DNA from: an uncultured Pelagibacteraceae bacterium
Lineage (GTDB): Bacteria > Pseudomonadota > Alphaproteobacteria > Pelagibacterales > Pelagibacteraceae
Reading direction: 5' to 3'
DNA: 64,000 nt
NCBI GenBank assembly: GCA_902581445.1
Contig: CACHOG010000001.1
Coordinates: 310,001 to 374,000, forward strand
A model generated the notes under the pieces. The model was not told the origin of the DNA. It did no database searches and saw nothing but the letters and a program-made list of their open reading frames with translations. Positions 25,925 through 42,062 of this stretch are shown here, in pieces (position 1 is the first letter of the stretch; each line of letters starts with the position of its first letter). The position numbers and the translations under genes are program-made.

Positions 25925-26935
25925 TTAAAGTGCCTTTTTGATTTTTTTCGCAGCACCGCTTGAAACCCACTTGGTCCAAACACTCTCTTGTGTTTTTAGG
26001 AATTCAATTGCAGCATCAGCACCTTCTGCTTGGTTTTCACCCATCCAAACTAACATACCGTTCATAACTGGGCCTGGATACGTTCTTTTTTTAAAGTATT
26101 CCATACCAGCGTTTCCAGCTGTTTTTTTGAAATTATCAGTTACGATTGTGTAAACTTCAGATTTTGTCCATGAAGTTTTTTTAGGGTTAGCACACTCTTG
26201 CTCTGGTAAAACAATACAACCATCCCAGTTGTCTTTACCACCCCATTCACCCATATCCACAGCTCTCATATCATATTTACCAATAATAGCTGTTGGTGAC
26301 CAATAATAACCAAACCAGTTTTCTCCTCTTTCTGCAGCTTTAGCAATTGAACCATCTAATCCTGCAGCTGAACCAGTTTCAACTATCTTCCAACCTTTTT
26401 TCTCCATTTCCCAAGCTCTAAAATGGTTTCTGTTACTTAATTCACAGTTCCAGCCTGGAGGACAAATATGGAAACCACCTTTTGATGGATCTTCTGGATG
26501 TGGAAAAAGATCTGGTCTTTTTAAAATAGCTTCAGCAGTTGTTAACTCAGGATGTTTTTTAAGTGTGTGAGGTAATACCCACCAACCTTCACCCAAACCA
26601 GTAATTGGCGCTTTGTTAAGTGAGTGCATTTTACCTTCATCAACAGCTTTATTCAAAGCGATGATTGCAGCGTTAGCCCAAAACTCTGGAGCAACATCTG
26701 GCTCACCTTTTTCTTGCATCGATGTAAACGTTGGCATAGTTGCTCCTGGAACTAGTTCCACAGTACAACCATAACCCTCTTCTAATATAATCTTATCAAC
26801 TTCAGCCATAAAATTAGCTGATGCCCAGTTCATATTAGCAACAGAAATCTTTCCACATGCAGCGTTAGCTATTCCACTAAAAGAAGTTAAGCCAAATGCA
26901 ACAAGTAAAGAAAGAATTATTCTTTTTATTTTCAT
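25925..26935 (-). CDS. Periplasmic binding protein for a betaine-type ABC transporter
   Basis: A 336-residue OpuAC/ProX-fold protein with a signal peptide (cleavage likely after IANA). The mature protein is rich in tryptophan, as expected for the aromatic box that holds a quaternary ammonium group: WASANF, APEFWANAA, GEGWWVLP, WFGYYWSP. It contains Cys pairs in FHICPPGWNCEL. It is the first gene of the minus-strand cluster permease-metF-gcvT, so its ligand is probably the compound that these enzymes demethylate. It is related to, but clearly different from, the protein at 46524-47531. A leader hairpin lies upstream. Confidence 0.9.
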   Translation of the reverse strand: MKIKRIILSLLVAFGLTSFSGIANAACGKISVANMNWASANFMAEVDKIILEEGYGCTVELVPGATMPTFTSMQEKGEPDVAPEFWANAAIIALNKAVDEGKMHSLNKAPITGLGEGWWVLPHTLKKHPELTTAEAILKRPDLFPHPEDPSKGGFHICPPGWNCELSNRNHFRAWEMEKKGWKIVETGSAAGLDGSIAKAAERGENWFGYYWSPTAIIGKYDMRAVDMGEWGGKDNWDGCIVLPEQECANPKKTSWTKSEVYTIVTDNFKKTAGNAGMEYFKKRTYPGPVMNGMLVWMGENQAEGADAAIEFLKTQESVWTKWVSSGAAKKIKKAL

Positions 26936-26984
26936 TTATTATCTCCGTTTTTTAAATTTAAAAAGTAATTAGAACATATATAAG

Positions 26985-27034
26985 AAAAAAAGCAAACCAG
27001 TAACAACTATAAGTTGTAATTAAAAATTGCTTTT
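26985..27034 (-). ncRNA. Structured leader element upstream of the binding-protein gene
   Basis: An outer 8-base-pair stem (AAAAGCAA 26988-26995 with TTGCTTTT 27027-27034) encloses an inner perfect hairpin (ACAACT / AGTTGT, 27003-27017). Read on the minus strand, the outer stem is followed by a run of seven T, about 50 bases before the binding-protein ATG. This looks like a terminator-type or attenuator element in the leader. It matches no riboswitch class that I recognise. Confidence 0.35.
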
Positions 27035-27153
27035 ACTTAGATTTTGTATTTTGATATTTTTAAAATTATGAAATTTGTCTCATACAAAAATATTTTTGGT
27101 TTTAAATTTAATTTAAATTGCAAAACTGTTTTTCAACAATCAATTATAAGAGA

Positions 27154-27208
27154 CAGTTATTAAAAACTTTCCTCAAATAAAAAATAAATTAACTTTTAAA
27201 GGAGGAAA
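27154..27208 (+). ncRNA. SAM-V-like riboswitch covering the bhmT ribosome binding site
   Basis: The short leader folds as an H-type pseudoknot. P1 pairs AGTTA (27155-27159) with TAACT (27190-27194). The P1 loop TTTCCTC (27168-27174) pairs with GAGGAAA (27202-27208), which contains the Shine-Dalgarno sequence AAGGAGG. The linker CTTTTAAAGG (27193-27202) matches the conserved U/A-rich part of SAM-II/SAM-V aptamers. SAM-V riboswitches are known to precede bhmT in SAR11 and to block the ribosome site when SAM binds. No SAM-II aptamer was found upstream, so this looks like the single rather than the tandem form. Confidence 0.8.
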
Positions 27209-28249
27209 ATGAAAAAAAACTTATTATCAAGATTAGATGAAGGTCCTGTCATATTTGCAGAAGGGTATTTATTTGCAATGGAAAGAAGAGGATATTTATC
27301 TGCAGGCCCATTTGTACCTGAGGTAGTGCTAGAGTATCCTGATGTTGTAACTCAGCTGCATAGAGAATTTATAAGAGCTGGTTCTGATATCGTTCAAGCT
27401 TTCACTTATTACGGACATAGAGAAAAATTAAGAATTATTGGAAAAGAACATCTGCTTGAACAAATGCAAAAAAATGCACTTAAAATCGCAAAAGATGCTG
27501 CAAATGAATTTAAAGATTTGGATTTGATGGTTTGTGGAGATGTTGCAAATACAAATATTTTTGATCCAAAGGATAAAAATTCATTTAAAGAATGTCAAAA
27601 GATGTATGAGGAACAAGTGCTTTGGGCAAAAGAGGCGGGTGTTGATTTCATTGTTGCGGAAACAATCAATTGGGTAGATGAAATGAAGATAGCATTAAAA
27701 GCAATTAAGGATGAAGGTTTAATAGCTGTAGCTAATTATGCGATACCTAGAGGAGATTTAACAAGAGACGGTTACACAGCTGAAGATGCGTGTAAAATAA
27801 TAGAAGATCTTGGTGCAGATGTTGTTGGTTTAAATTGTTATAGAGGTCCTAAAATGACAATGAAACTTTTAAAAGAAGTTAGAAAAAAAGTTTCATGCCA
27901 TGTCGCAGGTTTGCCTGTTCCATATAGAACAACGGAGGAAGAGCCTGGATTTTTAAATCAAACTGATCACGGATGTGATTGTATCCCAGGAGGAAATGCG
28001 TTTCCCGTAGCTTTAGATAATTTATTTTGTAATAGATTTGAAATGGCAGAATTCGCCAAGGAATGTCTTGAGAAAAAAATTAATTTAATTGGTATATGTT
28101 GTGGAGCAGAAGCTCATCATGTTAGAGAGATGGCAGTTGCAGTTGGAAAAAAACCGATTGCTATGAAGTATATGCCAGATATGAGTAAGCATTTTCACCA
28201 TGGGACAGACAAGACATTGAAGAAAGTAAACAAAGAAATAAAATATTAA
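27209..28249 (+). CDS. bhmT: Betaine-homocysteine S-methyltransferase
   Basis: Transfers a methyl group from glycine betaine to homocysteine, giving dimethylglycine and methionine. The 346-residue barrel has all three zinc cysteines: Cys210 in VGLNCYRG and Cys297/Cys298 in IGICCGAEAHH. It also has the FAEGYLFAMERRGYL N-terminal substrate loop and QAFTYYGHREKL. A strong AAGGAGG ribosome site lies inside the SAM-V-like pseudoknot, so high SAM should lower translation. The dimethylglycine dehydrogenase gene follows after one base, which directly uses its product. Confidence 0.93.
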   Translation: MKKNLLSRLDEGPVIFAEGYLFAMERRGYLSAGPFVPEVVLEYPDVVTQLHREFIRAGSDIVQAFTYYGHREKLRIIGKEHLLEQMQKNALKIAKDAANEFKDLDLMVCGDVANTNIFDPKDKNSFKECQKMYEEQVLWAKEAGVDFIVAETINWVDEMKIALKAIKDEGLIAVANYAIPRGDLTRDGYTAEDACKIIEDLGADVVGLNCYRGPKMTMKLLKEVRKKVSCHVAGLPVPYRTTEEEPGFLNQTDHGCDCIPGGNAFPVALDNLFCNRFEMAEFAKECLEKKINLIGICCGAEAHHVREMAVAVGKKPIAMKYMPDMSKHFHHGTDKTLKKVNKEIKY

Positions 28250-28250
28250 A

Positions 28251-30656
28251 ATGGAAAATCATGCAAAAGTAGTCATTATCGGTGGTGGTGTAGTAGGTTG
28301 TTCAATTCTTTATCATTTATCTAAATTTGGTTTAAAAGATTGTATTTTACTTGAGAGAAATGAACTTACTTCTGGTTCTTCTTGGCATGCTGCTGGCAAT
28401 GTTCACGTAATTTCATCTGATCCAAATATTTCTAGAATGATGGCCTATACAATTGGTCTTTATAAAGAGATAGAAAAAGAGTCTGGTCATTCTGTTGGTT
28501 TTAAACCAAGCGGAGGCTTTTATTTAGCATCTAATGAGGTTTGGGCTGAATATTTAAAGAGGGAAAGATCAAAAGCTAGATATATGGGTCTAGACCAAGA
28601 ATTTATTTCTCTTGATGAAGTAAAGAAAAAACATCCTTTAATTGATCCTAAAAGGTATTTGTTAGCTTTGTGGGATCCTATTGATGGTGAAGTTGACCCT
28701 TCAGGAGTGACATATGCATTTGCAAAAGCCGCTAAAGTTCACGGTGGAAAATATTATACTCACACAGTTGTTAAAGATACTAAACAAAAACCAGATGGTT
28801 CTTGGGATGTATTTACTGATAAAGGAAATATTAATGCAGAAATTGTTATCAATGCAGGTGGTCTATGGGCTAGAGAAGTAGGAAATCTTTCTGGAGTAGA
28901 TCTTCCAGTTCAACCAATGGAGCATCATTATTTAATAACTGAAAGTATTCCAGAAATTGAAGCGATGGGAGATCAAAGATTACCAATTGGCACAGACTTT
29001 GAGGGAAATATTTATTTTAGACAAGAAGGTAAAGGAATGTTGCTTGGTACTTATGAACCTAAGTCAACTCCATGGAAAATAAATGGAACTCCGATGAACT
29101 TTGGACATGAATTGTTAGAACCAAAGCTAGATAACATTCAAGACAGGTTAGCAATAGGATTTGAAAGAATGCCAGCATTAGAAAAAGCTGGAATAAAAAA
29201 TATTGTTAATGGACCTTTTACTTTTGGTCCTGATGGCAGTCCACTTATTGGTCCAGTTCCTGGTATGAAAAATTATTGGGTTGCAGTTGGCGTTATGGCT
29301 GGTTTTTGTCAGGGCGGAGGTGTTGGAAAATGTATCGCTGAATGGATTATAGATGGGGAACCTTCAATTGATGTTTGGGCAATGGATGTAGCAAGGTTTG
29401 GTGAATATGCCACTCCACAGTATGGAACTATTAAATCATCAGAAAATTATGAAAGACGATTTATAATGACATTTCCAAATGAAACTTTACCCAAGGGAAG
29501 AAAACAAAAAACAACTGCATTATACGATCGTTTTGTAAATCAAGGAGCAGTTATGGGAGATGGATTTGGTTTAGAGAGCGTTTTATGGTTTGCAAAAAAT
29601 AAAGAAGATGCCTTTGAAGAGCCAACTATAAAAAGATCAAGATCTCATAATTACGTATCAAAAGAAGTTATAAATGTTAGAGAAAATGTAGGTGTGATGG
29701 AACTTGCAAATTTTTCAAAACACGAATTTGAAGGACCTGATGCTAGAAATTTTTTAAACTATATTATGGCTGGTAAAATTCCTAAACCAGGAAGAATTTC
29801 TCTTACCCCAATGCTTACTTACAGAGGAAAACTTTATGGTGACCTTACCGTGTCATGTATTGATGAAAATAAATTTATGGTTTTTGGATCTGGAGCAGCT
29901 CAAGAAATGCATAGAAGGTGGTTTGAAAGTCATTTAAATAAATTTAAAGTAAATTATAAAAATCGATCAGATGATTTTCATGGTTTAGCAATATCAGGAC
30001 CTAAATCCAGAGAGGTTTTTCAAAAAATTGTAAGAGAAGATGTATCAAATAAAAATTTTAAATTTAGAGACTCTAAGAAAATGTTTGTTGGTGGAGTACC
30101 AGCAATTGTAAATCGATTATCTTTTACTGGTGAGCTGGGATATGAAATTTATACAGCGCCACATTATCAAATTAAATTGTACGAAGAATTAATGGAAGCT
30201 GGTAAAGAATTTAATATTCAACCCTTTGGTTTAAGAGCTTTAATGTCTATGCGTCTTGAAAAAAATTGGGGTGCTTGGACACTTGATTATAGACCAGACT
30301 TTACTGCAAAAGAGACAGGATTGGATGTATTCATTGATTGGGATAAAGATTTTGTGGGAAAAAATTTTGCAAAAAAAGATGAAAGCAAAAATAAACTTAC
30401 TCCATTAATTGTAGAAACAAATGATATTGATGTCACAAATAACGAAGCGGTATTAAAAAATGGAAAAGCTATTGGATACGTAACTTCAGGAGGTTTTGCA
30501 CATTTTACAAATAAAAGTGTTGCGTTTTCATATCTTGATAGCCGAGAAATAAATTCGGAAAAAGGAATTCAAGTGGAAATAAATGGAGATTTGTTTAACT
30601 CTTCAGTAATAAAATCACCGCTTTATGATCCAACAGGACAAAAAATGAGAAGCTGA
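28251..30656 (+). CDS. Dimethylglycine dehydrogenase (FAD/GcvT fusion)
   Basis: An 801-residue enzyme that oxidises N,N-dimethylglycine to sarcosine and passes the one-carbon unit to tetrahydrofolate. The N-terminal half is an amine oxidase with GGGVVGCSILYHL (11-23) and SGSSWHAAGNVH, where His46 is the position of the covalent FAD. The C-terminal half (from about 440) is a GcvT-type domain with ISGPKSREVF and LSFTGELGYEIY. A sarcosine dehydrogenase activity is an alternative, since the two families are close. But sarcosine oxidase is separately encoded at 10668-15771 and this gene follows bhmT, so dimethylglycine is favoured. Confidence 0.88.
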   Translation: MENHAKVVIIGGGVVGCSILYHLSKFGLKDCILLERNELTSGSSWHAAGNVHVISSDPNISRMMAYTIGLYKEIEKESGHSVGFKPSGGFYLASNEVWAEYLKRERSKARYMGLDQEFISLDEVKKKHPLIDPKRYLLALWDPIDGEVDPSGVTYAFAKAAKVHGGKYYTHTVVKDTKQKPDGSWDVFTDKGNINAEIVINAGGLWAREVGNLSGVDLPVQPMEHHYLITESIPEIEAMGDQRLPIGTDFEGNIYFRQEGKGMLLGTYEPKSTPWKINGTPMNFGHELLEPKLDNIQDRLAIGFERMPALEKAGIKNIVNGPFTFGPDGSPLIGPVPGMKNYWVAVGVMAGFCQGGGVGKCIAEWIIDGEPSIDVWAMDVARFGEYATPQYGTIKSSENYERRFIMTFPNETLPKGRKQKTTALYDRFVNQGAVMGDGFGLESVLWFAKNKEDAFEEPTIKRSRSHNYVSKEVINVRENVGVMELANFSKHEFEGPDARNFLNYIMAGKIPKPGRISLTPMLTYRGKLYGDLTVSCIDENKFMVFGSGAAQEMHRRWFESHLNKFKVNYKNRSDDFHGLAISGPKSREVFQKIVREDVSNKNFKFRDSKKMFVGGVPAIVNRLSFTGELGYEIYTAPHYQIKLYEELMEAGKEFNIQPFGLRALMSMRLEKNWGAWTLDYRPDFTAKETGLDVFIDWDKDFVGKNFAKKDESKNKLTPLIVETNDIDVTNNEAVLKNGKAIGYVTSGGFAHFTNKSVAFSYLDSREINSEKGIQVEINGDLFNSSVIKSPLYDPTGQKMRS

Positions 30657-31285
30657 TGGCACAAAAAGACGTAGGAAACAAAATACCAATTTATAAATTA
30701 AAAAAAACCGATGAGGTAATGAAGTATTATGACGATTGGGGACAAGAAAATAAATATGATAAAGACATGCTTGATTGGAACTATACTGGTCCAAAAGAAA
30801 CTACTGAAACATTTATTAAATATCAAAAAAACAAGGATGCTAAAATTTATGATGCTGGATGTGGCACAGGATTAGTTGGTGTTGAATTAAAAAAATTTGG
30901 GTATCATAATTTTTATGGTGCAGATCTTTCAAAAAAACTCTTAGATTTGGTACCTGACCAACTTTACAAAAAACTTGATCAAGTAGACTTAAATAAACCT
31001 ATTGAAGAAGAAAACGACTCCTTCGATGCTGTGATGTGTGTTGGGACTTTTACATTTGGACACGTTAAACCTCCTGCTTTAGACGAATTTATAAGAATTA
31101 CTAAAAATAAAGGACATATATGTTTTACAATAAACGAAGGAATACACGAAGAGTATGGCTTTGATAAAAAAATTGAACAATTAAACAATGAAAATAAATG
31201 GAAAGAAATCGAATTTTTTAAATCTGACTATATTGCAAGCAAAGATGTAAATGCTTGGCTTGGGTTATATGAAGTGATAAAATAA
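30656..31285 (+). CDS. SAM-dependent methyltransferase
   Basis: A 209-residue class I methyltransferase. Motif I is DAGCGTGLVGVELKKFG (about 65-81), followed by GADLSKKLLDLV, and motif IV-like FDAVMCVGTFTFGHV. Its start overlaps the dimethylglycine dehydrogenase stop (TGATG). The acceptor is unknown. Its place inside a betaine-degrading operon suggests methylation of a small amine or repair of a cofactor, but nothing in the sequence proves it. Confidence 0.8.
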   Translation: MAQKDVGNKIPIYKLKKTDEVMKYYDDWGQENKYDKDMLDWNYTGPKETTETFIKYQKNKDAKIYDAGCGTGLVGVELKKFGYHNFYGADLSKKLLDLVPDQLYKKLDQVDLNKPIEEENDSFDAVMCVGTFTFGHVKPPALDEFIRITKNKGHICFTINEGIHEEYGFDKKIEQLNNENKWKEIEFFKSDYIASKDVNAWLGLYEVIK

Positions 31286-31288
31286 GTT

Positions 31289-32464
31289 ATGTCTGAAATT
31301 TATAATATTATAGACAAAAAAAAACTAGATGTTGTAAATAACTCTATTGAAAAAGCTCATGGATTACCAAACGAATGCTACACGAGCAAAGATTATACTT
31401 TAATTGAGAGAAAAAAACTTTTTGAAGATAAATGGATTGTAGCAGGAGTTGCAAGCTCCATACCTGAAATTGGAGATGTAAAACCAATAGATATTCTTGG
31501 AATGCCTATTTTAATTTTAAGAAATAAACAGAATGAAGTTAAAGTTTTCCACAATGTTTGTAGTCATAGAGGAGTGAAACTGGTTTCTAAAAGTGGAAAA
31601 ATTAATAGCCTTATTCGATGCCCATATCATTCTTGGTCATATAGTCTCGATGGAGAACTAATAGCAACACCTCACATTGGTGGTATGAATAAACATTCTG
31701 TAGAAGGTTTTGATAAATCAAAAAGTAATCTAAAAGAAATCAGATCTTATATTTGGTTAGATTTAATAATGATAAATATTAATCAAAATGAGATGTCTTT
31801 TGAAGAATATATAAAACCTTTAAGCGATAGGTGGGAGAAATTTTGGCCTGTAAAAGACCGAGAATTAATTCATCACTCAAATGATTTTGGATATTTCAAA
31901 TTAAATGCAAAATGCAATTGGAAATTTGCAATTGAAAACTATTGCGAAAGTTATCATCTACCATGGGTGCATCCAGGTTTAAACTCTTATTCAAAAATAG
32001 AGGATCATTATCATATACAAGGTTTACCCAATCGCTTTGCTGGTCAAGGAACAGTTGTTTATAATCCTCGATTTAAAGGAAAAGAAAAACTTCCAAGTTT
32101 TCCAAATTGGCCAAAGGATAAAGAAAATATTGCAGAGTATGTTGCATTGTTTCCAAATGTTATGCTTGGAATTCATAAAGATCATTACTATGCCTATTGG
32201 ATTGAACCAATTAATCATGAGTTTACTTTTGAACATATGGAGCTATATTATGTTGGTGAACAAGCAGCTCAAGCTAATAAATTTAAATCATTACGAAAAC
32301 AAAATCATAAACAATGGGAAGACATTCAAAAAGAAGATGTTGATATAATACAGGGTATGCAAACTGGCAGAAACTCTCCATCATATAATGGAGGAAACTT
32401 TTCACCTGTAATGGATAATCCAACTCATCATTTTCATAAATGGGTAGCACAAAATTTAATTTAA
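31289..32464 (+). CDS. Rieske non-heme iron oxygenase, glycine-betaine/quaternary-amine type
   Basis: A 391-residue alpha-subunit of a ring-hydroxylating-type oxygenase. The Rieske [2Fe-2S] ligands are Cys91-x-His93 and Cys111-x2-His114. The mononuclear iron site has ENYCESYHLPWVH with His223 and His228, and a later Asp near 350. The sequence resembles the oxygenases that demethylate quaternary amines (GbcA, proline-betaine demethylase, carnitine monooxygenase). No reductase gene is next to it, so electrons must come from another place. With bhmT present, it could be a second route from glycine betaine to dimethylglycine or act on a different betaine. Confidence 0.82.
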   Translation: MSEIYNIIDKKKLDVVNNSIEKAHGLPNECYTSKDYTLIERKKLFEDKWIVAGVASSIPEIGDVKPIDILGMPILILRNKQNEVKVFHNVCSHRGVKLVSKSGKINSLIRCPYHSWSYSLDGELIATPHIGGMNKHSVEGFDKSKSNLKEIRSYIWLDLIMININQNEMSFEEYIKPLSDRWEKFWPVKDRELIHHSNDFGYFKLNAKCNWKFAIENYCESYHLPWVHPGLNSYSKIEDHYHIQGLPNRFAGQGTVVYNPRFKGKEKLPSFPNWPKDKENIAEYVALFPNVMLGIHKDHYYAYWIEPINHEFTFEHMELYYVGEQAAQANKFKSLRKQNHKQWEDIQKEDVDIIQGMQTGRNSPSYNGGNFSPVMDNPTHHFHKWVAQNLI

Positions 32465-32465
32465 A

Positions 32466-33701
32466 ATGAAATTTAGTAGAAAAATTGCACCGGAAATTAA
32501 AACATCACCAAAATTTTTAACAAAAAAAAGATTAAAAGAGGATGAGATAAATTTTGAAAAATTAAGATCATATAGACTTGATAGAGTTAGAAAAGAATTA
32601 AAAAAAAATAATCTCGAGGCATGCATACTCTTTGATCCAGTCAATGTTAGATATGCATTAGACACTGTTAATATGAGTGTTTACAATATGCACAATCTAA
32701 CAAGATATTGTTTTGTGCCTGTTAATGGACCAACAATTTTGTATGAATACTTTAATTGTGAAATTTTATCAAAGCACTTAAATTTAATCGATGAAATTAG
32801 ACCAGCAATCACCTGGGATTATTTTAGCAACGGCGATCAAGCAAATACTCAACTCAAAAAATGGATTAATGAAATTAAAGACCTATCAAATAAATATTTT
32901 AAAACTAAAAAAGTTGCAATTGATGTATTAAATGGCCCAGCTGTATCTGAACTCAATAAACAAGGTATTGAAGTTGTTGATGCAAAATTAATATTAGAAC
33001 AAGCAAGAGTAATCAAATCTCCTGAGGAATTAAAATGCATGAAAGCCGCGATAGAAGTTGCAGAGATTGGTGTTGCAAAAATGCGAGAAGAATTAAAACC
33101 TGGTATGACTGAGGATGAACTTTGGTCCATACTCCATAAAACAAATATCGAGCATGGAGGTGAATGGATTGAATGTAGAATATTATCTTCAGGTGAAAGA
33201 ACAAATCCATGGATGCAAGAAAGCAGTAATAAAGTAATGCAAACTGGAGAAATAGTTGCTTTTGATACCGATATGGTTGGTCCATATGGATATTGTGCAG
33301 ACATTTCAAGATCTTATGTCGTGGGACATAAATTTAACGATGAACAAAAAAAATTATACTCAATGGCAGTTGAACAAATAGACCATAATGCAAGATTAAT
33401 TAAACCTGGAATGACTTTTAAAGAATTTATTGAAAAATCTTGGTTATTACCTGAGGAGTACTATGGTAACCGATACTCATGTATGGTTCATGGAATTGGT
33501 CTTTGTGATGAGTGGCCACAAATTAAATATCCAACAGATGGTGGAGAACAAGGTGGAAGTTTTGAACAAAATATGACTTTAACTGTTGAAAGCTACATAG
33601 GTAAAGTAGGTGGCAAAGAAGGAGTTAAATTAGAACAACAATACTTAGTTGGACAAAATGGACTTGAGCTAATGTCTTATCATCCTTTAGAAAAAATTTA
33701 A
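32466..33701 (+). CDS. dddP: DddP-like M24-family protein (candidate DMSP lyase)
   Basis: A 411-residue creatinase/Xaa-Pro-peptidase-fold protein. From memory it aligns well with roseobacter DddP. GEWIECRILSSGERTNPW (232-249) and VHGIGLCDEWP (341-351) match closely. The metal ligands line up as Asp267, Asp269, Asp279, His342, Glu375 and Glu390. The residue corresponding to the catalytic Asp377 of DddP is present as Asp348, and the Tyr366 equivalent is Tyr337. DddP cleaves dimethylsulfoniopropionate to dimethyl sulfide and acrylate. The start is 2 bases after the Rieske gene, and the final base overlaps the next ATG. Creatinase or peptidase activity is the alternative. Confidence 0.72.
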   Translation: MKFSRKIAPEIKTSPKFLTKKRLKEDEINFEKLRSYRLDRVRKELKKNNLEACILFDPVNVRYALDTVNMSVYNMHNLTRYCFVPVNGPTILYEYFNCEILSKHLNLIDEIRPAITWDYFSNGDQANTQLKKWINEIKDLSNKYFKTKKVAIDVLNGPAVSELNKQGIEVVDAKLILEQARVIKSPEELKCMKAAIEVAEIGVAKMREELKPGMTEDELWSILHKTNIEHGGEWIECRILSSGERTNPWMQESSNKVMQTGEIVAFDTDMVGPYGYCADISRSYVVGHKFNDEQKKLYSMAVEQIDHNARLIKPGMTFKEFIEKSWLLPEEYYGNRYSCMVHGIGLCDEWPQIKYPTDGGEQGGSFEQNMTLTVESYIGKVGGKEGVKLEQQYLVGQNGLELMSYHPLEKI

Positions 33702-34111
33702 TGAAAATTATTTTAGTTATGGGATTGCCTGGTGCAGGTAAAACAACTTTAGCAAATGAACTTGCACCAATGATAAATGCAAAAAGATTAAATGCGGATG
33801 AAGTAAGAAAAGCTGCAAATGATTGGGATTTTTCTGAAGAGGGAAGAACAAGACAAGCAAAGAGAATGGCAGATCTTGCTATTAAACTAAAAGCAGAAGG
33901 AAATTATGTTGTAGCTGATTTCATTTGCCCAACGCCTGAAGCAAGAAACTTATTTCCAGCTGATTATGTTGTTTGGGTGGATACGATAAAAGAGGGTAGG
34001 TTCGATGATACTAATAAAATGTTTGTAAAACCTGACAAATTTGACTTTCATGTTACCTCTCAGGATGCCAAAAATTGGGCATCTAAGATATATGAAGATT
34101 TAAAAAAATAG
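33701..34111 (+). CDS. Small P-loop kinase, adenylylsulfate-kinase-like
   Basis: A 136-residue P-loop protein with Walker A GLPGAGKTT (8-16), the NADEVRKAANDWDFSEEGR substrate-binding region and VADFICPTPEARNLF. These are the blocks of APS kinase (CysC), but the protein is clearly shorter than normal CysC (about 170-200). It starts on the last base of the DddP-like gene. A nucleotidyltransferase with a similar small size lies beyond two surface-protein genes (38645-39019). The phosphate acceptor is unknown and may not be APS. Confidence 0.72.
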   Translation: MKIILVMGLPGAGKTTLANELAPMINAKRLNADEVRKAANDWDFSEEGRTRQAKRMADLAIKLKAEGNYVVADFICPTPEARNLFPADYVVWVDTIKEGRFDDTNKMFVKPDKFDFHVTSQDAKNWASKIYEDLKK

Positions 34112-34133: not shown

Positions 34134-36242
34134 ATGAATAAAATTTTCAAATTAAAAATAATTATTTTAGTTATTCTTATTTTGCAAAGTTCAATTACTT
34201 TTGCAGCTGTAAGTGGATTTGTTGACAGCAAAGGTATTACGCAAAAACTCGCACATGGAATAACATTTAAACCAGATGGAACTAAAATGTTTGTTGTTGG
34301 AATGAGTCAAAATAAAATTTTCGAATTTGATTTATCTACAGCTTTTGATATTTCAACTGCTACCAAAAATTCAAACGAATATCTTCATTTTTCAGAACAA
34401 ATAGATGCAACTGATATAAAATTTAATTCTGATGGTACAAAATTGTTTCTTGCTGGAACAGATGATCAAGAAATAAACGAGTATAATTTATCAAATGCTT
34501 ATGATGTTTCAACCATCACACATCAGAATACATATTTTAATGGGGATGGTTTGGATTTTGTTGCTATCGCATTTAATACGGATGGAACAAAACTTTTTAT
34601 TTATGATAAGACAGGTAATGACTCGATTAAACAATATTCATTGGGTAGTCCCTTTGATCTCTCAAACGCAGTTCTTCAAAAAGAATATAATGGAACGAGC
34701 AGCAAAACTTTAAGACAAATAAATGGGACTCCACAAGGATTTGCATTTAGTGCTGATGGATCTAAAATGTACGTTACAGGAACAGGCACACAAAAAATTA
34801 AAGAATTCACACTAAGCACACCTTTTGATTTATCTAATGTAACACTTGAATCAGGGGGTTATGACCTCTCTGGCCAAATTGAAGAACCTGCAGGAATTGC
34901 ATTTAGCGCTGATGGTCTTAAATTATTTATTTTAGATTTCAAAAATAATGCCGCTAATAGAGATGTTAATGAATATGATTTAACTTGTGGTTTTGGTGTC
35001 ATCAGTTGCATCGATCCAACAGCAAACAAAGATGATGTTGCTTCTATTGAAACACAATCAGAGACAACAAAAAAAATTATACAGCACACAACATTCCCAG
35101 TTATCAACCGTATGGAATGGTTAAGACGAAATAGTGGAAGAGTTAATTTGACTAATCAAAACATTAAGATTCAGTTTAATAATGCAATTTTGAATTCCTT
35201 AACAGATACTTTAATTCCTCTTTATTTTTCTAATGATGGTAATAGTGATTCAAATTATCAAAATTCAAGCTGGTCTTTTTGGAGTGAAGGAACTATCAGT
35301 ATAGGAAGCACGGGTGACACTAGTCAATCTTCATCAAAAAGTATTAACACTTCTGCAATTACTCTTGGAGCAGATAAAAAAGGTCAGGATAATATCATAA
35401 GAGGTATTGCTTTAAGATTTGGTACTGATGATGTTGATGTTGGCGACCTTGGAAGTGCTTTAGATATGAATTCTTTTAGTTTAACTTTTTATGAAACAAA
35501 GCCAAAAGGTGAAGAAAGATTTACAGATCATTTATTAGGCATGAGTTTTATAAATTCAAATTTAATAAATAACAGCGGATCTCAATCAACAAATGGTGAC
35601 AGATACGGCGAACAATTATATGGATCCTTTAGCTTGAGAGATACGTTTTCAAAAAATCGATTAAATTTTACTCCTAAATTAAAAATTAATTATGGAATAA
35701 CACATTTAGGCTCATATAAAGAAACAGGATCTGAAGGATTAAATTTAGAATATGACGATCAATATATTGGTAATTTTATATCATCTGTAGGAACAAGTTT
35801 AGATAATACTTACGATTTTGAAGTTGGATCCTTTATTCCGTATTTTGATTTTGAATATTATGCCGATATGAGTCCAGCTTCAAAACAGACATTCTCTTAC
35901 GTTTCTAATGGTGAGGAATTTACTTTGAGAGGTATAGAAAACTCTACTCACAATTTTATAGGTGGTATTGGATTTGATTTTGTGTCGGAGACTGGTTTAA
36001 CTTTAATGACCAAGTACACCAGGGATCAGGCTCAAAATAGTAAGAATGATAGCTTTAATATTGCTTTAGACTACAGAGGTTCTCAAAGGTCCTCTTATGC
36101 TATGTCCATTCAAGATACATCAGCTAAGTTTTCACACGATAAAGAACTAAATAATTTTAAAGTTAACATAGATAGTCACTATGATTTTTTAAAAAACGAC
36201 CCAGATTATGGGCTTTATTTAAAAATTTCGAATGTAAATTAA
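34134..36242 (+). CDS. Secreted beta-propeller/outer-membrane-barrel protein, copy 1
   Basis: A 702-residue exported protein with a signal peptide (cleavage probably after ITFA). The passenger has five repeats of about 50 residues with the pattern F-x-x-DG-x-K-(M/L)-F-(V/I) ... (E/Q)(F/Y)-x-L-S-x-(P/A)-FD-(I/V/L)-S, from roughly residues 28 to 285. A linker with NRMEWLRRNSGRVNL and FWSEGTISIGSTGDTS follows, then a C-terminal region of alternating hydrophobic strands that resembles an autotransporter barrel. It does not end in the usual aromatic residue. It is paralogous to the next gene. An outer-surface role is likely; the ligand is unknown. Confidence 0.8.
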   Translation: MNKIFKLKIIILVILILQSSITFAAVSGFVDSKGITQKLAHGITFKPDGTKMFVVGMSQNKIFEFDLSTAFDISTATKNSNEYLHFSEQIDATDIKFNSDGTKLFLAGTDDQEINEYNLSNAYDVSTITHQNTYFNGDGLDFVAIAFNTDGTKLFIYDKTGNDSIKQYSLGSPFDLSNAVLQKEYNGTSSKTLRQINGTPQGFAFSADGSKMYVTGTGTQKIKEFTLSTPFDLSNVTLESGGYDLSGQIEEPAGIAFSADGLKLFILDFKNNAANRDVNEYDLTCGFGVISCIDPTANKDDVASIETQSETTKKIIQHTTFPVINRMEWLRRNSGRVNLTNQNIKIQFNNAILNSLTDTLIPLYFSNDGNSDSNYQNSSWSFWSEGTISIGSTGDTSQSSSKSINTSAITLGADKKGQDNIIRGIALRFGTDDVDVGDLGSALDMNSFSLTFYETKPKGEERFTDHLLGMSFINSNLINNSGSQSTNGDRYGEQLYGSFSLRDTFSKNRLNFTPKLKINYGITHLGSYKETGSEGLNLEYDDQYIGNFISSVGTSLDNTYDFEVGSFIPYFDFEYYADMSPASKQTFSYVSNGEEFTLRGIENSTHNFIGGIGFDFVSETGLTLMTKYTRDQAQNSKNDSFNIALDYRGSQRSSYAMSIQDTSAKFSHDKELNNFKVNIDSHYDFLKNDPDYGLYLKISNVN

Positions 36243-36309: not shown

Positions 36310-38604
36310 ATGTTTTTAATAAGAAAATTCCTTTTAATATTATTTTTATTATTTCCAATCTCTAATTCATTTGGAGCTCCAGTAACTCTTGTCCATACAA
36401 CGCAGTTTAATGATGGTCCTAGTCCAGGTGGTATTGAATTTAATAAAGATGGAACAAAAATGTTTATAGTTCATAATACAAAAGATACAGGTGATGATTA
36501 TGAGGCAATTTATGTATATGATTTATCTACACCTTTTGATTCTTCTGAGAGCTCCAGAACCTATACCGGAGACAGCGAAAGATGTGTTTTAGGAGATGGC
36601 ACCAATGGTATAGATACCAATAACAATGCTGTTCTTTATGATTTGGAATTCAGTAGTGATGGAATGAAATTATTTACTACAAGTAGAATAAATGGCGATG
36701 GTACGAATGTGGACAGGGTTTACAGATTTGATTTAACTTCGCCTTATGATGTTTCAACTTGTTTTTATGTAATGGAAACTACAAATCTTGAAGTTGACGC
36801 TAATATTAATGGAAGTAATGCTGGAACTTTTGATTTAGGGGGATCGGGTCAACACAGTAATAATCACAGACTCCAAGCTTTGGAAATTAATGATGACGGT
36901 ACTAAATTATTTTTAGCTTGGATGGATTTGTCCAATACCAATACTAGATTGTTAGAGTATAATTTAACAACACCATATGACATAACAACACTCCAACTTG
37001 AAACGAATGCCGGAATTTTAATAGGTTCGGGTACCACAACTGATGTAATTAATCCTAATGGAATGAGATTTAGTGCAAATGGAAAAAGAATTTTTGTTGT
37101 TAGTCACCAAGCAGGTGGTAACCAGGGTGTTAGTCAGATTTCCCTTACAAATGCTTATGATACGTCTTCATTTGTTTTAGATGGAAAATATAGTGTAACA
37201 GGTTCAAACAACCAACCAAGAGGTATTGGATTTAGCGCAAATGGTTTAAAAATGTATGTAGGAAGTGATCCAAGCGGAGGTTATGGCACAACTAGAATTT
37301 ATGAATATGATTTAACTTGTCCTTTTAATTTATTTGAAGGTAAATGTGACGCTATAACAGAGGGTGATCGAACAGGTATGGCAGAAGCACAAATGGAACT
37401 TGCAAGAAGAACGATCGACCATTCAACAAATTCAGCTTTGAACAGATTAAAATGGATAAGAAGAAACAAAGATAAACAAGATTTAACAAATTTACAAATT
37501 GATATTAATTTCTCAAATCAAATGATGGCTTCTCTTACAGAAGCAGTAAAAACTGCAGCTACTAAAAAAAACAAACCTTTTAAAGATAAGAATGTATTTT
37601 ATTGGAGTGAAGGAAGTATTTCAGTTGGAAAAGTGGGAGACACCAACGTTTCAACTTCAAAAGAAATTAATGCAAACTCTTTAACTATTGGTGCAGACAA
37701 ATTTACTGACAATAATGGTATTATTGGATGGGCTCTTCGATATGGAAATGATCATACTAAAGTAGGTTACAATGGTAGCAACATGAATGCAGATACATTT
37801 AACCTTACACTGTATAACACTAGACCCTCATCTATTGACAATAAATATATTGATACAATCTTTGGAATTGGAAAACTTAATTTAGATATTCTAAATTTAC
37901 TTGATGGTGAAAATTTAGTTGCCAAAAGATCAGGAAGACAAATGTACGGTACAGTTAAACTTAAAGACGAAATTATCAAAAATACATTAACAATAATTCC
38001 ATCTGTACAAATTGATTTTGGTCACACAATATTTGATTCTTATAAAGAAACTGGTATCTCAGCAATAAGCTTTAAGAAACAACATGTAAAATCTAGAAAT
38101 ATAAGGGCAGCTATTGCAGCGGTAGATAAAATAGAAAATGATAAATATTCAATTAAAAAACATGGAAAATTAGAATACCAAGCTAATTTGAAACGTTCTT
38201 CAAATATTAAATATACATATAAAGACGATTCTTCAAAATCATTTCAAACGAAACTACACTCAGGATCTTTGCACAATATTAATGGTGAGATTGGTGTAGA
38301 TATAATTTTTCCAGAAAATTATAGTATTTTTATAATCTATGAAAGAAAACAGACTTTTGATCATGGAGGTCTACATCATGGATATGGTTCAGGATATACA
38401 GACAACCTCTATATAGCATTAGGTTATTTACCAGGCAAAGATACTGAGTATGCATTAAAATTGAATAGTACAGATAATTTAATGACACAACTTGAGATTA
38501 AAAAAGATATAAAAGGATTTGATTTAATATTTAATTTGAATGATGATTTAACAAATATAGGCGATGCAAGAGAAGCTTATATTGAACTAAATAAAGTCTT
38601 TTAA
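36310..38604 (+). CDS. Secreted beta-propeller/outer-membrane-barrel protein, copy 2
   Basis: A 764-residue paralogue of the preceding protein with its own signal peptide (cleavage after SNSFGA). It also has five beta-propeller-like repeats, for example GIEFNKDGTKMFIV, DLEFSSDGMKLFTT and GIGFSANGLKMYVG. The linker NRLKWIRRNKDKQDL and YWSEGSISVGKVGDTN matches that of copy 1. The C-terminal barrel-like region ends in Phe (ELNKVF), as expected for insertion by the BAM machinery. Loops differ strongly between the two copies while the frame of the repeats is kept, a pattern seen in surface proteins under changing selection. Confidence 0.8.
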   Translation: MFLIRKFLLILFLLFPISNSFGAPVTLVHTTQFNDGPSPGGIEFNKDGTKMFIVHNTKDTGDDYEAIYVYDLSTPFDSSESSRTYTGDSERCVLGDGTNGIDTNNNAVLYDLEFSSDGMKLFTTSRINGDGTNVDRVYRFDLTSPYDVSTCFYVMETTNLEVDANINGSNAGTFDLGGSGQHSNNHRLQALEINDDGTKLFLAWMDLSNTNTRLLEYNLTTPYDITTLQLETNAGILIGSGTTTDVINPNGMRFSANGKRIFVVSHQAGGNQGVSQISLTNAYDTSSFVLDGKYSVTGSNNQPRGIGFSANGLKMYVGSDPSGGYGTTRIYEYDLTCPFNLFEGKCDAITEGDRTGMAEAQMELARRTIDHSTNSALNRLKWIRRNKDKQDLTNLQIDINFSNQMMASLTEAVKTAATKKNKPFKDKNVFYWSEGSISVGKVGDTNVSTSKEINANSLTIGADKFTDNNGIIGWALRYGNDHTKVGYNGSNMNADTFNLTLYNTRPSSIDNKYIDTIFGIGKLNLDILNLLDGENLVAKRSGRQMYGTVKLKDEIIKNTLTIIPSVQIDFGHTIFDSYKETGISAISFKKQHVKSRNIRAAIAAVDKIENDKYSIKKHGKLEYQANLKRSSNIKYTYKDDSSKSFQTKLHSGSLHNINGEIGVDIIFPENYSIFIIYERKQTFDHGGLHHGYGSGYTDNLYIALGYLPGKDTEYALKLNSTDNLMTQLEIKKDIKGFDLIFNLNDDLTNIGDAREAYIELNKVF

Positions 38605-38644: not shown

Positions 38645-39019
38645 ATGAGTTATAAGTGGGATAACAAAAAACCAACTGCACAAATGCTTGGAAGGTGGCA
38701 ACCATTTCATGACGGTCACTACGCTTTATTTAAAGAAATAATTAAAAAAACAGGACAAGTTTGTATTCAAATAAGAGATGTACAGGGAGTAGATGATAAT
38801 CCATTTGATTTTGAAACAGTTAAGAAAAAAATAGAGGAGAGATTAAACCCTGAATTTGAAGGAAGATTTAAAGTGATATTGGTACCAAATATAACTAATA
38901 TTTGTTACGGCAGAGGAGTAGGTTACAAAATTGAGGAAATAGTGTTGTCCGAGGAAATACAAAAAATATCTGCAACAAAAATTAGAGCTAAAATGCGGGA
39001 AGATGGAGATTTAAAGTGA
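38645..39019 (+). CDS. Small nucleotidyltransferase (cytidylyl/adenylyltransferase fold)
   Basis: A 124-residue protein with the HxGH nucleotidyltransferase motif in RWQPFHDGHYALF (His22 to His25) and the second motif ISATKIR (108-114). These define the family of NMN adenylyltransferase and related cytidylyltransferases. It is shorter than most members. A good GAGGAG ribosome site precedes the ATG. Its stop overlaps the GTG start of the 2OG oxygenase by 4 bases. With the kinase at 33701 it could activate a small molecule as a nucleotide derivative; this is inferred. Confidence 0.75.
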   Translation: MSYKWDNKKPTAQMLGRWQPFHDGHYALFKEIIKKTGQVCIQIRDVQGVDDNPFDFETVKKKIEERLNPEFEGRFKVILVPNITNICYGRGVGYKIEEIVLSEEIQKISATKIRAKMREDGDLK

Positions 39020-39867
39020 ATGAAAGACTTAAATCAATTGTTGATTTAGAAAAATATCCAATTCACGATTTAAACTCACCAATAATAAAAAAATTAGTTG
39101 AAAAATGTAAAAAGGAGTTAGACGAAGATAGTTGTTCGACAATTCCAAATTTTATCCTACCAAAGTCATTATCAATAATGAATACTGAGTTAGAAAAGCA
39201 ACTTGATGAAGTTTACATGTCTAAAGAAAAAATTAATCCCTATTTGTATGCCAAAGATGATCCAGAGTTGCCAAAAGATCATCCTAAAAGAACCTTCATG
39301 AATAGATTTAATGGATATTTGAATTCAGATTGTTTTTTAAAAGGTTCCGAAATGAAATTTCTTTACGAAACAGAGGAACTTTTGAAATTTGTTTCCTTAT
39401 GTTTAGGAGTTTCACCAATATATAGATGGGCAGATCCTTTAGCTTGTCATGCATATAATGTTATGGAGCCAGAAGGAATTTTGCCTTGGCATTTTGATAG
39501 TTGTGAATTTACATTAAGTTTAATGATCCAAAAACCTGAGAAAGGTGGAATATTTGAATACTGCCCAAATATAAGAGAACCTGGTAATGAAAATTTTGAT
39601 GAAGTAAAAAAAGTTTTAAACGGAGACAGATCAAGAGTTAGACAATTAAAATTAGAGCCGGGAGATTTGCAAATATTCAAAGGAAGATTCACATTACATA
39701 GAGTAACTAAAGTAGAAGGAAACAAATCTAGATATATGTGTATTCCTGCTTATGTTCTTGATCCTTGGAGAGTAAATACACCAGAGCACTCAAAAGCAAT
39801 TTATGGAAAAGTTTTACCAATCCATTTAGAAAGAAATGTTGCTCGATCAGATGGTTTAACAGATTAA
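39016..39867 (+). CDS. 2-oxoglutarate/Fe(II) oxygenase, HalD/BesD-like
   Basis: A 283-residue double-stranded beta-helix oxygenase. The iron triad is His159 and Asp161 in WHFDSCEF, and His228 in FTLHRV, with Arg239 (NKSRYMC) likely to hold 2-oxoglutarate. The surrounding sequence recalls proteins grouped with the amino-acid halogenases HalD/BesD. Those halogenases have Gly or Ala in place of the Asp, so the intact HxD here argues for hydroxylation or another oxidation. The start is GTG, overlapping the nucleotidyltransferase by 4 bases. The gene ends directly before carnitine dehydrogenase (next ATG). Confidence 0.75.
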   Translation: MNERLKSIVDLEKYPIHDLNSPIIKKLVEKCKKELDEDSCSTIPNFILPKSLSIMNTELEKQLDEVYMSKEKINPYLYAKDDPELPKDHPKRTFMNRFNGYLNSDCFLKGSEMKFLYETEELLKFVSLCLGVSPIYRWADPLACHAYNVMEPEGILPWHFDSCEFTLSLMIQKPEKGGIFEYCPNIREPGNENFDEVKKVLNGDRSRVRQLKLEPGDLQIFKGRFTLHRVTKVEGNKSRYMCIPAYVLDPWRVNTPEHSKAIYGKVLPIHLERNVARSDGLTD

Positions 39868-40806
39868 ATGATTAAAAAGATTGCTGTAATTGGTACTGGA
39901 GTTATAGGTACTGGTTGGATTATTAGATGTTTGGCTCATAATTTTAAGGTCATTGCCTACGACAAAGATCCTAAATTAAAAAAAAAAATAATAGAAGAGA
40001 TAAGAAGAGCATCACCGTTTGTAAAAAAACTATTTAACAAAAAAAAAATCAATATTAAAAATTTTCAATATGTAACTTCTTTAGAAATAGCACTTAAAGA
40101 TGCAGACTTTATTCAAGAAAACACTACAGAAAATTATAAAATTAAAACTAAATTAATGAACCTTATTGGAAAATACGCAAAAAATAATGCAATTATTTCA
40201 TCTAGTTCTTCTGGCCTACTTCCTACAAAAATTTATTCAAAATGCAGAAATCCTGCAAGAACTATGATTGGACATCCATTTAATCCTGTTTACCTGTGTC
40301 CTGGAGTTGAAGTAGTTGCTGGAAAAAAAACTAAAAAAAAATTTTTAAATAAAGCCAATAAATTTTATAAATCTATTTCTATGAATCCAATTATCGTTAA
40401 AAAGGAATTACCTGGATATTTAGCAGATAGATTACAAGAAGCGTTATGGAGGGAAGGTTTGCATATTATTAATGAAGGTTATGCAACCACTAAAGATTTA
40501 GATAGAGCTATAGAGGACGGGCCAGGACTTAGATGGTCTTTGATGGGAACATTTTTAACTTTTCACCTAGCAGGTGGTAAACTTGGAATGAAACATATGT
40601 TAGAACAATTTGGACCAGCATTAAAATTACCTTGGACAAAATTAAAAGCTCCGAAACTTTCAAAAAAATTATCTAGTAGAGTTATTAGTGGTACAAAATC
40701 ACAAGCAAAAGGCAAGTCTGTGGCAATGATCTCCAGCATCCGTGATGAATATCTAGTTAATCTTCAAAAGCTTAGAAAGAAATATGAAGACAAATTAAGG
40801 AAATGA
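39868..40806 (+). CDS. cdhA: L-carnitine 3-dehydrogenase
   Basis: Oxidises L-carnitine to 3-dehydrocarnitine with NAD. The 312-residue 3-hydroxyacyl-CoA-dehydrogenase-fold protein has the NAD motif VIGTGVIGTGW (7-17). It has the segments DADFIQE, SSSSGLLPTKIYSK, GHPFNPVYLCPGVEVV, LADRLQEALWREGLHIINEG and FGPALKLPWT. From memory, these match Pseudomonas CdhA far better than 3-hydroxybutyryl-CoA dehydrogenase. The cleavage enzyme (60528-61412) and a thioesterase (45173-45643) that complete the pathway also occur in this window. Confidence 0.85.
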   Translation: MIKKIAVIGTGVIGTGWIIRCLAHNFKVIAYDKDPKLKKKIIEEIRRASPFVKKLFNKKKINIKNFQYVTSLEIALKDADFIQENTTENYKIKTKLMNLIGKYAKNNAIISSSSSGLLPTKIYSKCRNPARTMIGHPFNPVYLCPGVEVVAGKKTKKKFLNKANKFYKSISMNPIIVKKELPGYLADRLQEALWREGLHIINEGYATTKDLDRAIEDGPGLRWSLMGTFLTFHLAGGKLGMKHMLEQFGPALKLPWTKLKAPKLSKKLSSRVISGTKSQAKGKSVAMISSIRDEYLVNLQKLRKKYEDKLRK

Positions 40807-40821
40807 TTGTACTTAAATATC

Positions 40822-41595
40822 ATGACCGTATTAGTAAAAAATCTTGGAAATGGAATTAAGAATGTAAAAATTAATGATCCAAAGTCATATAATTCATTAA
40901 CTTTTGCAACTTTAAACCTACTTTTAAAAACCTTTCAGAAAATGGACAAAGATAATTCGACAAGAGTAATTATCTTAGAAGGAGTTGGTAAAGGCTTTAG
41001 CGCAGGTCATAATCTCAAAGAAGTAAGAGGACTTAAAAAAAGATCAAAATATTTAAAACTATTTAACCTTTGTTCAAAGTTAATGATCCAAATTGTAGAA
41101 GGACGTAAACCTGTAATTGCGAAAGTTCATGGCGCTGCTTATGCGGCTGGATGTCAATTAGTTGCAAGTTGTGACTTAGCTTATAGTACCAATGATGCAA
41201 TCTTTGCAACGCCAGGTGTTAATATTGGATTGTTCTGTAGCACACCTATGGTTGCAGTAAGTAGAAAAGTTACAAGAAAAAGAATGATGAAAATGCTTCT
41301 TACAGGAGAACCAATTAAAGCAAACTATGCAAAAGAAGTTGGCTTAATAAATGATCATTTTTCAAAAAAGAATTTAAACAAAGAAGTTATGAAAATTGCT
41401 AAAACAATTTCTTCAAAATCAAATTTAACAATTAAAATTGGAAAACAAGCTTTCTATAAACAGTTAGAAATGCCATTAAAAAAAGCTTATGATTTCACAG
41501 CAAAAATGATGACGCTTAACATGATGTCAATTGATGCCAAAGAAGGTATTCAGGCATTTTTAGAAAAAAGAAAACCCAAATGGAAAAATAGATAA
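40822..41595 (+). CDS. Enoyl-CoA hydratase/isomerase family protein
   Basis: A 257-residue crotonase-fold protein. The oxyanion-hole segments GKGFSAGHNLKEV and KVHGAAYAAGCQLVASCD are clear, followed by FATPGVNIGLFC. I set the start at the ATG at 40822 rather than the TTG at 40807. It follows carnitine dehydrogenase closely. The usual second catalytic Glu positions are not obvious; the substrate could be carnitinyl-CoA/crotonobetainyl-CoA or an ordinary acyl-CoA. The stop shares a base with the next ATG. Confidence 0.83.
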   Translation: MTVLVKNLGNGIKNVKINDPKSYNSLTFATLNLLLKTFQKMDKDNSTRVIILEGVGKGFSAGHNLKEVRGLKKRSKYLKLFNLCSKLMIQIVEGRKPVIAKVHGAAYAAGCQLVASCDLAYSTNDAIFATPGVNIGLFCSTPMVAVSRKVTRKRMMKMLLTGEPIKANYAKEVGLINDHFSKKNLNKEVMKIAKTISSKSNLTIKIGKQAFYKQLEMPLKKAYDFTAKMMTLNMMSIDAKEGIQAFLEKRKPKWKNR

Positions 41596-42062
41596 TGACC
41601 GACGATCAGATTAAAAATATTTTAGAAAAGTCAAAAACAATTGCAATGATTGGTATTAGTTCAGAAAAAAAAGGTGAAGATCCAAAAAATTTAAAAAGAA
41701 AACCTGCAAATGTAGTGATGAAATATATGCAAGATTTTGGTTATAAAGTTTATCCAATTAATCCTTTTGCAGAAGGTGAAATAGTTAATAATGAAAAAGT
41801 GTTAGCTGACCTAAAAAATGTTCCAGAAAAAATAGATATTGTTGATGTATTTAGACCTTCAAAAGAAACACCAGGTATTGCCCAACAAGCTAAAGAAATT
41901 GGATCAAAAGTTTTATGGTTGCAATACGGAATTCATAGTGACGAAGCAAAAGCAATTGCTGAAAGTTCGAATATGGAGTTTATATCTAATAGATGTATTA
42001 AGCAGGAATACCAAAAGATTTTTCAAAAATCTAATCCTGTCTTTCCAGCACTGAAAAATTAG
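41595..42062 (+). CDS. CoA-binding domain protein
   Basis: A 155-residue stand-alone CoA-binding (Rossmann-like) protein. It shows KTIAMIGISSEKKGEDPKN near the N-terminus, VMKYMQDFGYKVYPINPFAEGE, and VDVFRPSKETPGIAQQA, followed by VLWLQYGIHSDEA. This is the common YccU-like family of unknown exact role. It overlaps the genes on both sides by a base, so it is part of the same transcript as the crotonase and MsrA genes. Confidence 0.85.
   Translation: MTDDQIKNILEKSKTIAMIGISSEKKGEDPKNLKRKPANVVMKYMQDFGYKVYPINPFAEGEIVNNEKVLADLKNVPEKIDIVDVFRPSKETPGIAQQAKEIGSKVLWLQYGIHSDEAKAIAESSNMEFISNRCIKQEYQKIFQKSNPVFPALKN

Follow-up and report, generated by a model that had tools for sequence, protein, structure and literature searches.

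The window, which is the whole stretch of 64,000 nucleotides analysed from an uncultured Pelagibacteraceae bacterium, contained an intact ORF at 32466-33701, with an ATG start and no internal stops, that encodes a DddP-like metalloenzyme of the M24 family (M24 hereafter). The operon had the order bhmT, dmgdh, SAM methyltransferase, Rieske oxygenase, M24 and small kinase, and the Rieske gene and M24 were separated by one base. An earlier note on this DNA had described M24 directly behind bhmT, the dimethylglycine dehydrogenase gene and the Rieske gene; that order was confirmed, and the SAM methyltransferase gene, which it had left unnamed, was located between dmgdh and the Rieske gene. Family matches of the genes at 25925-34111 and 38645-42062 were mostly betaine-, C1- and carnitine-type. 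The annotated features are as follows:

25925-26935, minus strand: glycine-betaine-type ABC substrate-binding protein (OpuAC), a divergent neighbour (family search)
27209-28249, plus strand: homocysteine S-methyltransferase family protein (PF02574), read as betaine-homocysteine methyltransferase (BhmT)
28251-30656, plus strand: dimethylglycine-dehydrogenase-like protein with DAO, FAO_M, GCV_T and GCV_T_C domains
30656-31285, plus strand: SAM-dependent methyltransferase (family search)
31289-32464, plus strand: Rieske oxygenase alpha subunit, carnitine-monooxygenase-like (family search, alignment, co-occurrence)
32466-33701, plus strand: DddP-like M24 metalloenzyme, 411 aa (ORF, alignment to DddP, model)
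33701-34111, plus strand: small P-loop kinase, APS-kinase-like, directly after M24 in bhmT-type SAR11 loci
38645-39019, plus strand: small nucleotidyltransferase with weak NMN-adenylyltransferase matches
39016-39867, plus strand: Fe/2-oxoglutarate-oxygenase-like protein, distant HalD family (Pfam match on a relative in locus L073)
39868-40806, plus strand: 3-hydroxyacyl-CoA-dehydrogenase-type protein (best model L-carnitine dehydrogenase, 341 bits, below the cut-off of 414)
40807-41595, plus strand: crotonase/enoyl-CoA hydratase (348 bits, cut-off 313)

The window copy of the oxygenase-like protein matched solved HalD with an E value of 0.005 only, and a relative of its gene was found directly behind M24 in a second type of SAR11 locus. 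The crotonase could serve either a betaine/carnitine or an acrylate path. The kinase and the nucleotidyltransferase form a pair after M24 in bhmT-type SAR11 loci, and in many relatives the nucleotidyltransferase gene lies directly behind the kinase gene without the two large genes that intervene here. These two ORFs (34134-36242 and 36310-38604; 702 and 764 aa) showed, by eye, signal-peptide-like starts and propeller-like repeats; one or both are missing in many relatives, with the flanking genes joined. Upstream on the minus strand, a GcvT-like gene (22842-24203) scored 231 bits in the dmdA model, below the cut-off of 410, and is accompanied by an ORF of 242 aa (24190-24918). In locus L073, too, the Rieske-M24 pair is closely preceded by a GCV_T gene and by one of 242 aa, the latter without a Pfam match.

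Searches with the M24 protein placed four DddP sequences first among solved proteins (E values between 3.5e-82 and 3.2e-80), a similarity that is, judged by the E value of 3.5e-82, far above chance. The earlier note had listed eight DddP residues and a block nearly identical to roseobacter DddP, and both observations held in the alignment with RlDddP. D267, D269, D279, H342, E375 and E390 corresponded to the RdDddP metal ligands D295, D297, D307, H371, E406 and E421 (numbering from the available sections of PMC4108388), while Y337 and D348 aligned with DddP Tyr366 and Asp377, which were taken from the PDB DddP mutants Y366A and D377N. The block GEWIECRILSSGERTNPW shared 14 of its 18 residues with RlDddP. 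An AlphaFold model built from 18 sequences reached a pLDDT of 82.9, and Foldseek with this model returned DddP for all top four matches (rmsd 2.2 Å, 34-35% identity). The predicted structure thus had the two-domain pita-bread fold, nearest to solved DddP; structure prediction had been one of the checks proposed in the earlier note.

The NCBIfam DddP equivalog profile (NF043017) matched the M24 protein with an E value of 5e-105 and a score of 351.8 bits, below its cut-off of 600. Among 385 genomes of the window's class, 12 had a match over the DddP cut-off and 78 had a match at E 1e-60 or better; relatives under the cut-off are therefore much commoner than DddP. Of 588 relatives the best 80 were kept. 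A quick tree of 109 rows, which included the window and 11 of the 65 SAR11 loci (L038-L101 and L112), was followed by a careful tree of 59 rows picked from those 109. Both trees placed the SAR11 clade outside the DddP clade. On its DddP side, the careful tree grouped two solved DddPs and two annotated ones with all 12 proteins over the cut-off, which are sequence matches with predicted activity, and with seven more that scored 546-592 bits and so fell short of it. The split setting this side apart from the SAR11 clade had a support of 100/99, the SAR11 clade itself 100/99, and its nesting among other DddP-like proteins 98/90. A constraint joining the DddP and SAR11 clades as one was 33 log units worse and was rejected (p-AU 0.0174). 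The SAR11 rows had an unusual composition that was flagged in both trees, and the proven divergent DddP1 and DddP2 of O. doudoroffii, the fungal DddPs and the scallop-symbiont DddP stand outside the sampled set. As far as the sequences in the tree go, the M24 protein is placed in a subfamily beside, not inside, the DddP clade. A phylogeny had also been proposed in the earlier note, with placement among peptidases or creatinases outside the DddP clade as the outcome that would speak against a DddP. The protein did fall outside the DddP clade, in a neighbouring DddP-like group, and in the 109-row tree it was also apart from the more distant M24 outgroup.

The active-site motif was compared over 16 DddP, 20 SAR11-clade and 56 other DddP-like rows, the last of which included soil- and plant-associated bacteria. 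All six metal ligands were invariant throughout. Tyr366 was kept in every DddP and SAR11-clade row and in 55/56 of the others, and Asp377 likewise in 16/16, 20/20 and 50/56. The eight residues are therefore not diagnostic of a DMSP lyase, and the motif as proof of that function was rejected, as it runs through the wider DddP-like family; in particular, the ligand set loses the DddP-specific value that had been placed on it, being invariant in 56 rows outside the DddP clade. Three other positions did separate the groups. At Rl155, F was found in 16/16 DddP rows and W in the SAR11 clade and 44/56 other DddP-like rows; at Rl282, G in 16/16 and S in the SAR11 clade and 44/56; and at Rl407, A or V in 16/16, S or T in the SAR11 clade and S in 53/56. 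At these alignment positions the SAR11 clade sides with most other DddP-like proteins and not with DddP.

It is unlikely, on this evidence, that M24 is a real lyase of DMSP (or DMSOP) releasing DMS and acrylate beside or instead of the cupin lyases, with DddP function reaching beyond the clade drawn here. The eight conserved residues and the nearness of solved DddPs at 2.2 Å are consistent with such a lyase, as is the identity of 44.7% to the nearest annotated DddP among the plasmid matches listed, and, according to the available text of PMC10989825, a divergent scallop-symbiont DddP that shares 55% identity with O. doudoroffii DddP2 produced DMS when placed in E. coli. The window's genome also holds two genes over the dmdA cut-off, both outside the window (G000:C2:159431-160531 and G000:C1:266332-267432), so that DMSP is likely used by the organism, and the crotonase (40807-41595) might act on acryloyl-CoA. 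Pfam DMSP_lyase (PF16867) had no match in this genome, which is about 85% complete. Against a lyase stand the tree split with its rejected constraint, the score of 351.8 of 600 bits, the recurrence of these eight residues in bacteria associated with soil or plants, in several of which betaine genes lie nearby, and a partner that is a quaternary-amine Rieske oxygenase. Overall, the DddP homology and conserved active site claimed in the earlier note stood, whereas its candidate DddP-type DMSP lyase was left unsupported by the profile score, the clade and the Rieske partner.

Membership of the peptidases or creatinases by closeness was rejected. Xaa-Pro peptidases were the next-best solved matches (E 3e-21 and weaker, vs. 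3.5e-82 for DddP) and superposed at an rmsd of at least 3.5 Å, vs. 2.2 Å for DddP, among the 50 matches listed; neither in sequence nor in fold was the protein closer to an M24 peptidase, creatinase or ectoine hydrolase than to DddP. A prolidase-, creatinase- or ectoine-hydrolase-like activity, by which M24 would free an N-methylated or betaine compound from an amide or peptide for demethylation, is rated slightly less likely again than DMSP cleavage. It draws on the Pfam domains found (Peptidase_M24 and Creatinase_N), on plasmid relatives named 'Xaa-Pro peptidase family protein' and on the M24 fold that creatinase and ectoine hydrolase share, but the distances above and the presence of the DddP Tyr337/Asp348 pair in 20/20 SAR11-clade rows argue against it.

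For the window Rieske protein, the nearest solved protein was carnitine monooxygenase CntA (E 6e-34, 121 bits), followed by the demethylase entry 4qup (E 1.4e-22), and the best NCBIfam model was glycine betaine monooxygenase at 126 bits vs. a cut-off of 670. Rieske residues Tyr218 (codon 31940-31942) and Glu220 (codon 31946-31948) aligned with CntA Y203 and E205, with a 20-residue offset of the solved CntA chain inferred from the alignment. In the available sections of PMC7948474, CntA Y203 holds the quaternary ammonium group and E205 acts as bridging carboxylate, and group Va quaternary-amine oxygenases are recognised by an aromatic residue at position 203. Both the aromatic residue and the bridging Glu205 of this group were found in the window Rieske protein, which by these residues is a putative carnitine-type quaternary-amine oxygenase. 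The motif YCESYH was present in 73/73 SAR11 Rieske ORFs of the loci compared, with some genomes counted twice. The linked Rieske proteins of Paraburkholderia, Caballeronia and Rhizobium plasmid loci had Asn at the place of CntA 203, which is the state of group Vb (demethylase); two kinds of quaternary-amine Rieske oxygenase are therefore linked with DddP-like M24 genes. No reductase for the Rieske protein was found among the window operon genes scanned for families.

A survey of 297 Pelagibacteraceae genomes showed that M24 was present in 46. With the Rieske gene counted at an identity of at least 57%, which left out matches of 35-39% and so removed one genome (G068) from 83, it was found in 46/46 genomes with M24 vs. 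36/251 without (Fisher p 9e-32, a value that ignores the shared ancestry of the genomes). The distance between the two genes was at most 7 kb in 45 of the 46 (23 within 50 bases, seven at 460-463 bases and 15 at 1-7 kb), and in one genome they lay on different contigs. The SAM methyltransferase gene was present in 42/46 genomes with M24 vs. 40/251 without.

At least two SAR11 locus types were found around M24. The bhmT-type locus comprises bhmT, dmgdh, methyltransferase, Rieske, M24, kinase, nucleotidyltransferase and crotonase genes, with a Fe/2-oxoglutarate-oxygenase-like gene in many loci and a carnitine-dehydrogenase-like gene in some; its Rieske gene adjoins M24, precedes it by about 460 bases or stands before bhmT. 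In the second type (L073, L074, L089, L091 and L093-L096), Rieske and M24 were still together, the operon's bhmT, dmgdh and methyltransferase were absent from the flanks covered, and a distant dmgdh-like gene was located on the opposite strand. Where the contig permitted, the Rieske-M24 pair of this type was followed by the oxygenase-like gene, in some loci by an aldolase, carnitine-dehydrogenase-like or GFA gene, and further on by a betaine-aldehyde-dehydrogenase-like gene. Over both types together, a carnitine-dehydrogenase-like gene was found in 11/65 SAR11 loci and a GFA gene in 6/65, with some contigs ending early. In addition, an FrhB-type (F420 hydrogenase beta-like) gene was observed near M24 in some SAR11 loci (L089:9773-10993) and on a Pseudomonas plasmid (L032:11258-12490). 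That M24 is a chance or passenger neighbour with a role apart from the operon is very improbable, for although gene order varies between the locus types and a quaternary- or methyl-amine marker gene was found in just 4/8 loci of the sister group, the Rieske gene occurred in all 46 M24 genomes, within 7 kb in 45, at one base in the window, and beside M24 in two locus types.

Outside SAR11, two listings of plasmid matches covered 20 and 60 of 304 plasmid records. The nearest of them by tblastn (47-48% identity) belonged to Pseudomonas, Paraburkholderia and Caballeronia and, where annotated, were named 'Xaa-Pro peptidase family protein'; the nearest annotated DddP among those listed was that of Oceanisphaera (44.7%). 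In 8 of 13 plasmid neighbourhoods, Rieske, MttB, bmt, sarcosine oxidase or betaine ABC genes were close, while the other five (two annotated DddPs and three DddP-like genes) had no marker within 6 kb. Markers, i.e., quaternary- or methyl-amine genes within 6 kb, were found in 10/11 SAR11 loci, 4/8 loci of the sister marine alphaproteobacterial group, 22/50 other DddP-like loci, 2/14 DddP-clade loci and 2/12 loci beside or just inside the DddP clade, counts that are a description and not a test because the markers were chosen after the first plasmid neighbourhoods were known and some contigs end early. None of the eight sister-group loci had a Rieske gene within 6 kb; in one (L210) it was about 6 kb off, and BhmT was found in four. 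At the base of the DddP side, L190_10542 has a tyrosine-type Rieske gene directly upstream (L190:9074-11885), so the neighbourhood draws no sharp DddP line. A separate observation concerned one alphaproteobacterial genome with five DddP-like M24 ORFs within 15 kb and an MttB-type gene among them (L208:2857-17702).

Homology to DddP, the predicted fold, the two-metal site, the Tyr/Asp pair, the clade placement and the Rieske link were all computed for the M24 protein. The reading that accounts best for them, with a probability of roughly 60%, is that M24 is a DddP-like metalloenzyme that takes part in degrading a carboxylated quaternary amine (betaine) and belongs to a subfamily beside DddP, and its chemistry is probably an elimination of the DddP type. 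The Rieske oxygenase would hold the trimethylammonium group on Tyr218 and oxidise it, and the two metals of M24 would bind the carboxylate group, either of this compound itself or of what the Rieske enzyme makes from it. Asp348 with Tyr337 would then take a proton and a C-N bond would break, as DddP breaks the C-S bond of DMSP. The M24 and Rieske products would feed the BhmT and dimethylglycine dehydrogenase steps, and any formaldehyde released would go to a GFA-type protein, which is present in few SAR11 loci. Carnitine- or butyrobetaine-like substrates would fit the predicted 2-oxoglutarate-oxygenase-like and carnitine-dehydrogenase-like genes; with the latter present in only a minority of the loci, carnitine counts as one substrate candidate among others. 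DMSP has its exact nitrogen counterpart in beta-alanine betaine. RnDddP has a high reported Km for DMSP (13.8 mM), and in the available sections of PMC4108388 its authors linked the low activity to metal; the value would also fit, and proves nothing about, an origin of DddP from an enzyme for another onium compound. Against the betaine reading, the sister group had no Rieske gene within 6 kb, 28/50 other DddP-like loci were without a marker, 36 family genomes have the Rieske gene without M24, and in 15 of the 46 genomes with both the Rieske gene was 1-7 kb off. A broader proposal is tentative and has the odds against it: an M24 group of wide occurrence (SAR11, other marine alphaproteobacteria, rhizobia, a pseudomonad and burkholderias) may cleave betaine C-N bonds, DddP being its sulfur-specialised offshoot and part of the ocean 'dddP' signal being nitrogen chemistry.

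The available part of PMC12636525 states that no other group of heterotrophs in the surface ocean is as abundant as SAR11. DMSP cleavage affects the release of dimethyl sulfide. Glycine betaine use by SAR11 via bhmT and dmgdh is described in the available text of PMC3160333 and PMC12478193; 'peptidase' is absent from the main texts of both, and 'Rieske' occurs in the latter only in a reference title. According to the available sections of PMC10686828, DddP cleaves DMSP and DMSOP and fungal DddPs exist. In PMC8520302, as far as its available text goes, DddP was counted by HMMsearch at 1e-30 with trees including outgroups and a check of key residues, DddP was among the most abundant DMSP-cycling genes, and Pelagibacterales were listed under DddP. 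With all key residues and an E value of 5e-105 (from the NCBIfam profile, not the one used there), M24 should therefore pass filters of the kind given in that text, and the list in that text already implies a SAR11 DddP homologue, taken there as a DMSP lyase. Within the available portions of the literature on homarine, M24-containing betaine clusters and DddP-like proteins, no description of the Rieske-M24 pair or of the separate clade was found. Gene surveys may thus miscount M24 as DddP. If the betaine reading is right, survey counts of DddP would need a clade split and SAR11 would gain a methylated-nitrogen step; should M24 prove to act on DMSP as a lyase, SAR11 would possess one outside the cupin type. 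Overall, M24 is a real, conserved, DddP-like gene, and DMSP lysis is probably not its main function.

Compared with known systems, the M24 protein shares with DddP (NF043017; RlDddP 4rzy/4rzz/4s00/4s01 and RdDddP 4b28) the fold, the two-metal site, the Tyr/Asp pair and the GEWIE...NPW block. It differs from DddP in its identity of 34-35% to RlDddP and RdDddP, in its score below the equivalog cut-off, in its place outside the clade, in W, S and S/T at Rl155, Rl282 and Rl407 (F, G and A/V in the 16 DddP rows), and in its Rieske-linked locus. The window Rieske protein and CntA have in common the group Va Tyr and bridging Glu, but they are distant (121 bits). The Arctic SAR11 glycine-betaine island (PMC12421898, available text) resembles the SAR11 M24 loci in its carnitine dehydrogenase, aldehyde dehydrogenase, class II aldolase and betaine ABC genes, whereas its gene set is a different one: the text names BBOX and BKACE, with no 'peptidase' in the main text and no 'Rieske'. 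Finally, the DddP-like genes on plasmids of Pseudomonas, Paraburkholderia, Caballeronia and Rhizobium were 44-48% identical to M24 with the same catalytic residues where aligned, and most of those examined had a Rieske or MttB gene nearby, as the Rieske gene is in SAR11, the Rieske proteins of the Paraburkholderia, Caballeronia and Rhizobium loci carrying Asn where those of SAR11 carry Tyr.
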